NCBI GenBank assembly: GCA_001593865.1
Contig: LUCB01000007.1
Coordinates: 35,282 to 99,281, forward strand
DNA from: Candidatus Bathyarchaeota archaeon B24
GTDB lineage: Archaea > Thermoproteota > CALKCG01 > B24
Direction of reading: 5' to 3'
DNA: 64,000 nucleotides
The translations under genes were made by a program, and so were the position numbers. Numbering within the stretch: the first letter of the stretch is position 1; every line of letters begins with the position of its first letter. The notes beneath the pieces are model-generated. The model searched no databases, had not been told where the DNA came from, and was given only the letters and a program-made list of their open reading frames with translations. Shown here piece after piece: positions 6,445 through 13,310 of the stretch.

Positions 6445-7940
<1,496 letters not shown>

Positions 7941-8082: not shown

Positions 8083-10067
8083 ACACGTGGCGGCTGCTGG
8101 GTTCCCGAGTAGACCCGGCACGCTAAGCCGCCTGGTGGATGGCTCGGCTTGGGCGCCGAGGAAGGGCGTGGCAAGCTGCGATAAGCCCCGGGGAGGCGCA
8201 TGCAGCCTTAGATCCGGGGATCCCCGAATGGGACCTCCTGCCATGGGTTAATAGCCCATGGCGCTCCCACCCTCCTCGGAGGGGGGAGTGGGAACCCCCC
8301 GAACGGAAACATCCAAGTAGGGGGAGGAAAAGAAACCATCATGGGATTCCCTGAGTACCGGCGAGGGAAAGGGGAGGAGCCCAAACCGAACCCCTGGGGC
8401 TGACAAACCCCACGGGGATGTGGTGTAGAGGCTCAGCCTATAACGCCCACCACCCTGGGAAGCCGAAGTGGCCTGGAACGGCCCGCCATAGAGGGTGATA
8501 GCCCCGTAGGCGTAACCAGGGTTAGTGGGCTGGCTGAGCCGGAGTACCACACCTTGGTTTTGGTGTGGGAATCTGGGTGGAACCAGCATCCAAGGCTAAA
8601 TACGTCCCAAGACCGATAGCGCACTAGTACGGTGACGGAAAGCTGAAAAGCACCCCGGAAGGGGGGTGAAAAGAGCCTGAAACCAGGCGGCGATATCCGT
8701 GTGGGGCCCGAAAGGGTGGATCCACCCCGAAGGAAGCCGTGGCGACACGGTTGTACGAGGGGTGGGGACCAGGGTCCCACGTTCCGTTTCGAACCACGGG
8801 CCGGGGAGTTCACCTCCACGGCGAGCTTAAGGGCTTTAAAGCCCGTAGGCGGAGGGAAACCGACAGGTCCGCAGCCGGGCCGCGAGGCTCGGTGAGGGAC
8901 GGGGTCTGAAAGGGCCCGGAGTCGTGGGGGTGATAACCAGAAACCGGGCGATCTAGCCCTGGGCAGGGCGAAGCCGGGCGAAAGCCCGGTGGAGGCCCGA
9001 AGGGATGTTGACGTGCAATTCGCTCCTCTGACCTGGGGCTAGGGGCCAAAAGCCAATCTAGCCCGGTGATAGCTGGTTCCTCCCGAAATGGGTCGCAGCC
9101 CAGCCTCAGGCGAGGTAGCCTAGGGGGTAGAGCACCGATAGGGTGGCAAGGGTCCGAAAGGGCCCACCACCCTTTCGAACTCCGAATCCCTAGGCTCCGT
9201 AGACCCTGGGAGACGGGCGTCGGGGGGTAAGCTCCCGAGCCGCGAGGGGAACAACCCGGACAGGGGTTAAGGCCCCTAAATGCCGGCTAAGTGTTAACGC
9301 GAAGGGAGTCCCCAGCCTGAGACAGCTGGGAGGTAGGCTTAGAAGCAGCCACCCTCTAAGCAACGCGTAACAGCGGACCAGCCGAGGCTGGGGGCCCCGA
9401 AAATGGACGGGGCTTAAGCCGGCTGCCGATACCCCTGGGCCCGGCGTACACGCGCCGGGTTGGTAGGGAGGCGTCGCGGCTGGGTAGAAGCCGAGCCGTA
9501 AGGTTCGGTGGACCGGCCGCGAATGTAGATCCCGGTGGTAGTAGCAGCAAAGAGGGGTGAGAATCCCCTCCGCCGCAGGGGCCAGGGTTCTCCGGCAATG
9601 CTCGTCAGCCGGAGGTTAGTCGGTCCTAAGGCGGCCCTTAACCGGTCGCCGCCGAAAGGGAAACCGGTTTATATTCCGGTACCGTAGGGGTACGTGCGGC
9701 GACGCAGGCTCCCAACCTGACGCCTCCGGGTAGGCTGAGTGGGGTTGCCGCCCCATTTAACCGCTGAAGCCTGGGGAGTGCCGTAAGGGCGAGAACCAGG
9801 TGAAGGCGGGAATAGCCTCCCGCATAGGGGGGTTCAGCCGATCCCGGGGGACAGGGAAAAGGGTTGGGAGAAGGATCCCCTACGACCGTACCTAGAACCG
9901 ACACAGGTGCCCCTGGGTGAGAAGCCTAAGGCGTGTCGGGTCAACGCGGGTGAGGGAATTCGGCAAATTAGCCCCGTACCTTCGGAAGAAGGGGTGCCTG
10001 CGGTCTTAGCCCACGAAGGCTGGGACTGCAGGTCGCAGTGACAAGGGGGCCCCGACTGTTTAATAAA

Positions 10068-10691
10068 CGGGTAGAGACGCCGGATGAGGCTGAAGAATTT
10101 TAAATAGACCTCGTCTTCATTAAGAGATATGATAATGAGTAGTGAACAGCGAAATGACGCATATATCATGGGATTATTTTATGGAGACGGCACAACCTAC
10201 AAGACGAAGAAAGGCGCCTATCAGGTTTGGATAGACCAGTCAGATAAAAACAAGGATATACTAGAATATGTGGCGGTACCTAAGCTTAGGCTAATGAACG
10301 TCAAACTGTTCTTCTATCAATTTATTGATAGAAGACATCGGTTAAAGAAATGGAGATTGGCTCTTTATTCAAAAACGTTCTTTGATAGATTAAAAAAGGT
10401 CAAGCGAGATCCTTTAGGATATTTAAAGACGCTTAACGATGATGAAGTAAGGTATTTTATTGCAGGCTTGTTCGACGCTGAAGGCACTAAGACCGATAGA
10501 CTAGTTATATATAACAGAAATCTCGAACTCTTACAGGAGATAGGAAGACGACTTAGCAATTTTAATATTCACTCTAAAATTTACAAGTTCGGCTCAATTT
10601 ATGGTTTACAAATTCACAGGAAAAGCTCTGTGAAGATTTTCCTTAAAATAATACCGTCTTACAGGTTGACGGCGTCCTCGCCCGGTTAAAA
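10068..10691 (+). mobile_element. 23S rRNA intron 1 (archaeal-type) encoding a LAGLIDADG endonuclease
   Basis: Interrupts conserved TTTAATAA|AACATAGG; ends contain CGGG..GACGCC / GGCGTC..CCCG complementary strands; exact junction ambiguous within an A run. Confidence 0.9.
10129..10689 (+). CDS. LAGLIDADG homing endonuclease (intron 1)
   Basis: Two motifs: AYIMGLFYGDGT and YFIAGLFDAEGT. Confidence 0.9.
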   Translation: MIMSSEQRNDAYIMGLFYGDGTTYKTKKGAYQVWIDQSDKNKDILEYVAVPKLRLMNVKLFFYQFIDRRHRLKKWRLALYSKTFFDRLKKVKRDPLGYLKTLNDDEVRYFIAGLFDAEGTKTDRLVIYNRNLELLQEIGRRLSNFNIHSKIYKFGSIYGLQIHRKSSVKIFLKIIPSYRLTASSPG

Positions 10692-10817
10692 AACATAGGT
10701 AGCCGCAAGCCCGAAAGGGTGTGTACGGCTGCTGAATCCTGGCCAGTGCCGGTACCTAAAACCCGGGTCCAACCGGGCTAAGGGCCGGTAAACGCCGGGA
10801 GTAACTCTGACTCTCTC

Positions 10818-11377
10818 AACGGAGCCGCCTCGCCGTCGAATAGATTTAAGAGAGTTCTGATGGTATGAACATTAGTAGTGTTGAGTGAGGATTATACGAA
10901 AGGATATGTTTCAGGTTTTATAGACGCTGATGGAAGCTTCTCAGTAAGCATCAAGGTTCAAAGAGATGTCCGCTATGGTGTCAGAATAGACCCAGTGTTT
11001 AGCGTGACCCAGAGAAACAGGGAAGTTCTAGAATTTCTTAGAAGAGCTTTAGGCTGTGGTAGGATTATTAAGAAGCCCGGTCAGGAAAACTTATGGCTGT
11101 ATATCGTGGATAGAGGAGCTTAACGGTAAGCTACTGCGGTTTCTAGAAGATGGATGCCGGCTGATCGTTAAGGATAGGCAGTTGAAGCTCTTTACCGAAA
11201 TAGTAAAGGGGCTTATCGAGAAGCAACACTATAGTTATGAAGGAATTAAACAGCTTGTTCATCTATCTTATGAGCTTTCATCTTTAGGCGGTAAAGCCGT
11301 AAGGCGTAGAAGCCTGAACGAGGTTCTCACGATAATAGAGGAATATGAGATGAGACGGCGGGACGCTCCGGGAGAAA
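10818..11377 (+). mobile_element. 23S rRNA intron 2 (archaeal-type)
   Basis: Interrupts GACTCTCTC|AAGGTAGCC (near E. coli 1923-1927); CGGAG..CGCCGTC / GACGGCG..CTCCG complementary ends. Confidence 0.88.
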
Positions 11378-11382
11378 GGTAG
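10878..11382 (+). pseudogene. LAGLIDADG homing endonuclease (intron 2), frameshifted
   Basis: GYVSGFIDADGSFSVSI in ORF 10878..11123; the C-terminal half (IEELNGKLLRFLEDG...) continues in another frame (11056..11382). Confidence 0.75.
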
Positions 11383-12411
11383 CCAAATGCCTTGTCGGAT
11401 GACATCCGACGTGCATGAATGGATCAACGAGGGCCCCGCTGTCCCCACCCGGGACCCGGTGAAGCTACCTGGTGGTGAAAAGTCCACCGTCCCCCAGCGG
11501 GGTGAGAAGTCCCCGTGGAGCTTTACTGCAGCCTGTTGTTGGGGTATGGCTGTGGATGCGTAGGGTAGGTGGGAGCCTTTGAGCCAGCCCTTCCGGGGGC
11601 TGGGGAGGCGCCGATGAAACACCACCCTTCCACGGCTGTACCCCTAACCTGGGTGCCAAACCCGGGGACAGCAGCAGGTGGGCAGTTTGCCTGGGGCGGC
11701 GCCCCCTTGAAAAGATATCGAGGGGGCCCTAAGGCCAGCTCAGGCGGGTCGGAAACCCGCCGTAGAGGGCAAGGCCAAAAGCTGGCCTGACTGGGTCCTT
11801 CACAGTAAGGGACCCAGGGGTGAAAGCCGGGCCTAGCGATCCTCCATGACCCCACTGGTGGGGGCTGGAGGTGACAGAAAAGTTACCCCGGGAATAATTG
11901 GCTTGTCGCGGGCGAGAGTTCACATCGACCTCGCGGCTTGGTACGCCGTCGTCGTCCCTTCCCATCCTGGCGGTGCATAAGCCGCCAAGGGTGAGTCTGC
12001 TCGCCTATTAAAGGGGAATGCGAGATGGGTTTAGACCGTCGTGAGACAGGTCGGACTCTACCTGCTGGGGGTGCTGGCCGCCTGAGGGGAGCCCGTCCTC
12101 AGTACGAAAGGAACGGGGCGGGGTGGCCTCTGGTGTACCAGCTGTCCGGTAGGGCAAGCTGGGCAGCCACGCCGCTGGGGATAAGGGCTGAAGGCATCTA
12201 AGCCCGAAGCCCCTCCCGAAAATAGGCGGCCATTCCTAGGCGTAGGAGGCCCGGCGACGGGTCTCATGCCTAGGACGAGGGCTGGGGTAGAACACCCCGT
12301 TGATGGGGTGGGGGTGTAAGCCGGAAGGTCTTCGGACCGACCGGTTCAGCCCGCCACTCCCAATCGCCCGAGGTGCTGGGTCGAAAAAGGAGCCTAGCAG
12401 CTGCGTGAAAT

Positions 12412-12497: not shown

Positions 12498-13310
12498 TTG
12501 GCCCATAGTTGGGATGTCCCCTCCATAGACCCGGCTGAGACGACCGAGGAGATCTGCCGCTTCATAAGGGATGTGGTCGATAAGGCCGGGGCTCAGGGGG
12601 TCGTCGTAGGCTTAAGCGGGGGAGTAGACAGTAGCGTTACAGCGGCTCTGTGCGTTAGGGCTTTAGGGGCTAGTAGGGTGTTAGCGCTTCTGATGCCTAC
12701 ATCGTTCACGCCTAAGAGAGACGTGGAAGACGCTATGGACCTGGCTAAGAGTCTTGGCGTCGAGTATAGAGTCATACCTATCGACGATATGGTCAAGGCT
12801 TTCCTGAACGCTCTACCGTATAAGCATGGGGATCCATCGTATAGGATGCCGGCTGCAAACCTCAGAGCCAGGGTCAGAATGGTCATACTGTATTATCATG
12901 CAAACCTCATGAGGCGGCTTGTAGCGGGCTCGGGGGATAGAAGCGAGCTTCTAATCGGATACTTCACCAAGTACGGTGACGGGGCTGTAGACTTTTTACC
13001 GATAGCTCATCTCTATAAGACCCAGGTTAGGGAGCTGGCTAGGTGGCTTGGAATACCTGAGCGTATAGCCTATAAACCCAGTAGCCCCCAGCTGTATCCG
13101 GGCCATAGGGCAGTGGACGAGCTGCCGGCGGATTATCCGGTTCTGGACAAGGTTCTGGTAGGGTTGTTCGAGCTTAAGCTAAAACCCAGAGAGGTGGCGG
13201 AGAGGCTTAACGTAGCCGAGGAGCTGGTCTCGGAGACCCTGAGACGCTACGAGTCGACCATCCATAAGCGGAGACTACCGCCGATGCTTAAGCCCCTACC
13301 GGCTCTGTAG
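12498..13310 (+). CDS. nadE: NAD+ synthase
   Basis: GLSGGVDSSV P-loop, AANLRARVRM, GSGDRSELLIGYFTKYGDGAVD. Confidence 0.95.
   Translation: MAHSWDVPSIDPAETTEEICRFIRDVVDKAGAQGVVVGLSGGVDSSVTAALCVRALGASRVLALLMPTSFTPKRDVEDAMDLAKSLGVEYRVIPIDDMVKAFLNALPYKHGDPSYRMPAANLRARVRMVILYYHANLMRRLVAGSGDRSELLIGYFTKYGDGAVDFLPIAHLYKTQVRELARWLGIPERIAYKPSSPQLYPGHRAVDELPADYPVLDKVLVGLFELKLKPREVAERLNVAEELVSETLRRYESTIHKRRLPPMLKPLPAL

Follow-up and report, generated by a model that had tools for sequence, protein, structure and literature searches.

A single-copy archaeal 23S rRNA gene with a probable alternative base set in the second shell of the PTC

Published conservation values for the PTC reach 100% for C2452, 98.4% for U2504 and 98.3% for A2503 (PMC7345174 Table 3), and a 23S rRNA gene that departs from all three raises the questions of whether it encodes a functional rRNA and of which of its changes depend on one another. 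The original prediction for the window (the whole stretch of 64,000 nucleotides analyzed here, from Candidatus Bathyarchaeota archaeon B24) held that the substitutions track the opposite strand, and that this covariation argues for a functional rRNA rather than sequencing noise. The gene and its surroundings, in positions of the window, are:

6445-7937, 16S gene, upstream of the 23S gene
8111-12383, + strand, archaeal 23S rRNA gene, single copy, two introns (RF02540 profile match; exon ends placed by alignment)
10068-10690, 23S intron 1 (exon ends by alignment to E. coli 23S)
10817-11375, 23S intron 2 (exon ends by alignment to E. coli 23S)
11503-11510, + strand, H73/H74 side of the PTC, 2055-2062, with U2055, A2057, G2058 and U2062 (E. 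coli alignment)
11893-11899, + strand, PTC strand 2447-2453, with A2447, A2448, U2449, A2450, A2451, U2452 and U2453 (E. coli alignment)
11943-11958, + strand, PTC strand 2497-2512, ACGCCGUCGUCGUCCC (alignment to E. coli 23S; A2497 = 11943, C2512 = 11958)
12019-12025, + strand, 3' strand of helix 90, 2573-2579, with U2573, G2574, C2575, G2576, A2577, G2578 and A2579 (covariation)
12498-13310, NAD synthase gene, downstream of the 23S gene

The 23S gene matches RF02540 over the full length of the model (positions 1-2987; 2757 bits) and is the only LSU copy in the 1.73-Mb assembly (G000). E. coli numbering follows from alignment to the annotated E. coli 23S gene (L247). Intron 1 contains an intact LAGLIDADG_3 gene (10129-10689), and intron 2 a LAGLIDADG-like frame (GFIDADGSF) with an apparent frameshift break near 11110-11120.

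All six substitutions originally listed for the 2497-2512 strand are present (C2499G at 11945, U2500C at 11946, A2503U at 11949, U2504C at 11950, G2509U at 11955 and U2511C at 11957), as are those on the partner strands (C2452U at 11898, A2453U at 11899 and C2579A at 12025). The list lacked G2447A (11893), A2062U (11510), C2573U (12019), G2661A (12108) and U1955A, as well as U2055 (11503), which is A in most archaea of our panel, and C2575 (12021), which is U elsewhere in archaea; further compared sites read C2501 and C2554-U2555. The catalytic and tRNA-contact bases are intact (2251, 2252, 2450, 2451, 2506, 2553, 2583-2588 including U2585, and 2602). Every one of the order's 14 distinct sequences has G2661A, in the sarcin-ricin loop (within CAGTACGAAAGG), against 1 of about 207 others, and U1955A (exon 3) occurs in 15 of 15 sequences of the order but in no other sequence. 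U2573 and C2575 are confined to the window's order and a clade of Bathyarchaeia (38 of 228 sequences), always together with C2511; C2573 lies at the A-site accommodation gate.

Because the sequence comes from a MAG and the gene is interrupted by two introns, a pseudogene, a chimera or an assembly error might be invoked to explain this block of changes. Within the 271-base PTC region, however, a genome of the same genus (G001) is 100% identical to the window, one of the same family (G002) 98% and one of the same order (G006) 94%, and a metagenome scan recovered 15 more contigs with the window-type block and 23 with a Bathyarchaeia-type block. The recommended search for the same set in related MAGs was thus successful, and since three further genomes and the 15 contigs share the block, assembly error and chance are excluded as its source. 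A2503U is not order-wide, G006 and five of the contigs retaining A2503. Signs of a pseudogene, namely decay dispersed over the gene or another, intact copy, were looked for in the assembly and in the conserved columns and were not found: the gene is the sole LSU copy, and it deviates at just 8 of 697 near-invariant columns, with an excess in the PTC ring (3 of 37 columns vs. 5 of 660 elsewhere; p 0.006). We regard an origin by pseudogenization, chimerism or misassembly as vanishingly improbable. That the rRNA is functional rather than noise therefore stands, but the covariation argument advanced for it holds only in part; the conclusion follows instead from the single copy, the order-wide fixation, the recurrence in other clades, the concentration of changes in the PTC and the intact catalytic core.

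To ask which bases covary, normalized mutual information (MI) was calculated for each column pair across 230 distinct archaeal sequences, a panel that the search design enriched for U2509 sequences and whose members are related. The strongest tertiary coupling, which the original prediction missed, is that between 2447 and 2504 (GU 140, AC 73, GC 5, AU 0; normalized MI 0.749), for which we found no prior description in the open-licence literature. The exchange that had been proposed instead, from C2452-U2504 to U2452-C2504, is contradicted by the counts: all four combinations of C and U occur (CU 103, UC 39, CC 39, UU 37), and the pair has a normalized MI of 0.022 and rank 458 among PTC column pairs. 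Relatives thus carry these two substitutions uncoupled, an outcome that the prediction itself had named as telling against it, and 2452-2504 is ruled out as a covarying pair.

The other proposed couplings fared differently. That of 2453 with 2499 is supported (UU 104, AC 52, CC 34, UG 15, AA 8, GC 2, GU 1, AU 1; normalized MI 0.487). The change from G2509-C2579 to U2509-A2579 is a genuine exchange of one Watson-Crick pair for another (UA 163, GC 54, GU 9, UC 2; normalized MI 0.735), yet it belongs to ordinary helix-90 covariation and is common in archaea. The mismatch reported for U2511C opposite A2577 reflects a misassigned partner: the perfect covariation of 2512 with 2574 (CG 178, GC 43, UA 7; MI 1.0) places 2511 opposite 2575, where U.U has become C.C (UU 190, CC 38), and rules out 2511-2577 as a pair. 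Two further column pairs, 2500/2504 (UU 142, CC 75, CU 9, UC 4) and 2055/2500 (AU 115, CC 65, GC 9, UC 3, AC 2, CU 2), join 2447/2504 in one second-shell block. The couplings fit contacts already described, in that solved structures show U2504 in contact with both G2447 and C2452 (PMC7555685), and in simulations C2499 bonds A2453, and U2500 bonds C2452, U2504 and A2055 (PMC4652758).

We consider it probable that the window encodes a working, single-copy 23S rRNA in which the catalytic first shell has been kept and the second shell of the PTC has moved to an alternative set of bases. At the core of this set, A2447-C2504 takes over from G2447-U2504, usually together with C2500 and a non-A base at 2055; it would stand in for the reported G2447-U2504 contact and so preserve the shape of the A-site cleft. 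Position 2452 varies freely, whereas 2453 follows 2499. Helix 90 has exchanged G2509-C2579 for U2509-A2579 and U2511.U2575 for C2511.C2575, and A2503U would have arisen on a background already without A2062.

The alternative set extends well beyond the window's order. A pattern scan found C2504 in 49 of 400 Thermoproteota genomes, divided among haplotype II (37), the window's order (4), the Bathyarchaeia type (3) and family f40 (5). Haplotype II occurs in Thermoproteales and other families, its named carriers being Pyrobaculum, Thermoproteus, Vulcanisaeta, Caldivirga, Nezhaarchaeota and Culexarchaeum, and its PTC reads GGGARUAACCGG / ACCCAGACGUCGUCUC / GAGAUGGG. It shares A2447, C2500, C2504 and U2509-A2579 with the window, whose non-A base at 2055 is U where haplotype II usually has C2055. 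It differs in having C2452, C2453, C2499, A2501, A2503, U2511, C2573 and G2661; at five of these positions the window has U2452, U2453, C2501, U2503 and C2511. The Bathyarchaeia clade (families f19, f47 and f39), with GGGAGUAAUUGG / ANUCCG[C/U]CGUCGUCC[G/C], shares with the window A2447, U2452, U2453, C2500, C2504, U2509-A2579, C2511.C2575, U2573, U2062 and a non-A 2503, but has U2499 rather than G2499, keeps G2661 and U1955, and often has G2512-C2574. In a second scan of the same 400 genomes, the matches listed show canonical ACCUCGAUGUCGGCUC in most other families and ACCCAGAUGUCGGCUC in family f7. Outside Thermoproteota, C2504 occurs with C2452 and G2447 in one Thermoplasmatota MAG (L035), and Aciduliprofundum-like genomes have A2503U alone.

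Several observations touch on this distribution. In Poseidoniales loci (L037, L044 and others), natural C2452U with U2504 is widespread, despite the published table giving C2452 as 100%. A Bathyarchaeia MAG (G030) has two differing 23S copies on separate contigs (L195, L200), one with C2498U, reflecting either two operons or contamination. Two loci, L186 (G317) and L187 (G211), carry haplotype II rRNA though the other sampled members of their families appear canonical, and may represent contig or binning contamination. In 5 of 5 haplotype II or f7 genomes compared (L328, L333, L318, L335, L326), the uL3 finger is without the tryptophan of yeast W255 and contains an RW/KW insertion, or most of it, whereas the window's order retains this tryptophan.

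In an LSU tree built without the PTC columns, haplotype II, the carriers among Bathyarchaeia and the window's order occupy separate places, and all 5 inferred changes at 2447 lie on branches where 2504 also changes (p ~0.0002 vs. length-weighted random placement). In a tree of five proteins encoded around uL3, the window's order adjoins all sampled Bathyarchaeia and the variant Bathyarchaeia are sister to canonical ones, so that the shared block arose twice, or once with later reversal. That Thermoproteales and their Nezha/Culex relatives owe the 2447A/2504C block to a single origin was rejected on the LSU tree (p-AU 1e-4; a marginal 0.048 when f7 is included); the protein tree groups Thermoproteales with these relatives, contrary to the LSU tree. 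Independent origins of A2447/C2504 are few, about 2 to 5, and independent-pairs sign tests, with too few contrasts, lack power. A tree of EF-2 and uL3 was set aside on account of the two EF-2 copies present in several Bathyarchaeia.

The changes of the block tend to fall together on the same long branches, which makes it difficult to tell pairwise coupling from a burst of substitutions in domain V, caused in a few lineages by relaxed constraint or by transfer of an rRNA segment. Most PTC columns do change on the same few branches, and at least nine states are identical between the window's order and the Bathyarchaeia clade, U2573 and C2511/C2575 being unique to both; their union in one clade is not rejected (p-AU 0.27 for LSU, 0.075 for the five proteins). 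But the changes at 2452 fall on the same two branches, and this position is nonetheless uncoupled from 2504 across the whole set. Family f7 lies within C2504 lineages in both trees, LSU and protein, and combines G2447 with U2504 while keeping C2500 and A2501, which speaks against a change of the entire block. Moreover, C2504 occurs without A2447 in both f40 (with canonical G2447, C2452 and U2500) and L035, as expected if pairwise changes occur in order. A burst without specific coupling is, in our judgment, rather unlikely.

In bacteria, A2062 and A2503 sense nascent peptides. Among sequences with both positions readable, 2062/2503 is AA in 111, UA in 52, UU in 27 and UC in 6, and A2062 with a non-A 2503 was never seen, these counts leaving out position 2062 of the Aciduliprofundum-like A2503U genomes. 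Within the window's order, A2503 always accompanies A2062 (G006 and the five contigs) and U2503 always accompanies U2062 (all others). The pattern suggests, but does not prove, that A2062 was lost before A2503, since a non-A base at 2503 arose on just two or three occasions in the panel. Strong negative epistasis between A2503U/C and U2504 was seen in a tethered-ribosome library of E. coli (PMC10146877). At the uL3 position of yeast H259, where the window's family has F, the residue does not strictly track 2503.

The substitutions themselves are familiar from the laboratory. G2447A, C2452U, U2500C and U2504C have been recovered in Thermus (PMC7345174) and in an E. coli iSAT survey (PMC7049736), there as single selected changes, whereas the window carries a fixed natural combination. 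Each is viable singly in Thermus thermophilus (PMC7345174), and since this applies to G2447A and to U2504C, each on its own, the 2447/2504 coupling cannot be absolute in bacteria. Single changes at 2447, 2452, 2500 and 2504 alter sensitivity to chloramphenicol or tiamulin in Thermus (PMC7345174), and the block could on this basis represent drug-resistance substitutions accumulated under exposure to PTC-binding antibiotics or toxins. Yet U2500C and U2504C conferred no tiamulin resistance (PMC7345174), entire orders have the changes in fixed form, no drug pressure is visible in the sequence and no selecting agent is known, making this account quite improbable.

Alternatively, the PTC may have adapted to heat, an explanation put forward for 2554/2555 in Thermoproteota (PMC9976906). 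The median G+C content of domains V-VI is 0.58-0.67 in groups carrying C2504 vs. 0.555 in U2504 sequences, but many U2504 rRNAs are equally G+C-rich (up to 0.68) and the C2512 Bathyarchaeia set lies at 0.57-0.59. The A-loop variants U2554C/U2555C resemble the present case as natural variation of the PTC region in the same phylum, at other nucleotides; the main text of that study does not discuss natural variation at 2447, 2452, 2503 or 2504 (PMC9976906). The A-loop reads C2554-U2555 in the window but UU in the Bathyarchaeia clade, so the block does not track the A-loop change. Temperature may contribute to the block, but equally G+C-rich rRNAs being canonical, it does not explain it, and we view thermal adaptation as improbable.

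We return, then, to a relocated second shell around a preserved catalytic core. Because the catalytic and tRNA-contact bases are unchanged and the single mutants are viable in Thermus, this ribosome should make peptide bonds normally. It would do so without the A2062/A2503 nascent-chain sensor, and probably with altered sensitivity or resistance to several PTC-binding drugs. On our best reading, the alternative second-shell state is most extreme in the window's order, which adds C2573U, G2661A and U1955A.

Lineages that change near-universal PTC bases jointly reveal which positions constrain each other, and they supply naturally tested base combinations that ribosome engineers can use. Because cultivated Pyrobaculum and Thermoproteus carry the coupled core, the proposed A2447-C2504 contact is directly accessible to cryo-EM. 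More tentatively, and with the odds somewhat against it, the second shell of the archaeal PTC may have two discrete stable states, G2447-U2504 and A2447-C2504, with lineages switching from one to the other in a single unit. The most extreme case would then be the window's order, which has an altered accommodation gate (C2573U) and sarcin-ricin loop (G2661A) and, in most members, neither sensor adenine; its ribosome would differ measurably in its drug profile, in stalling and in how it interacts with factors.
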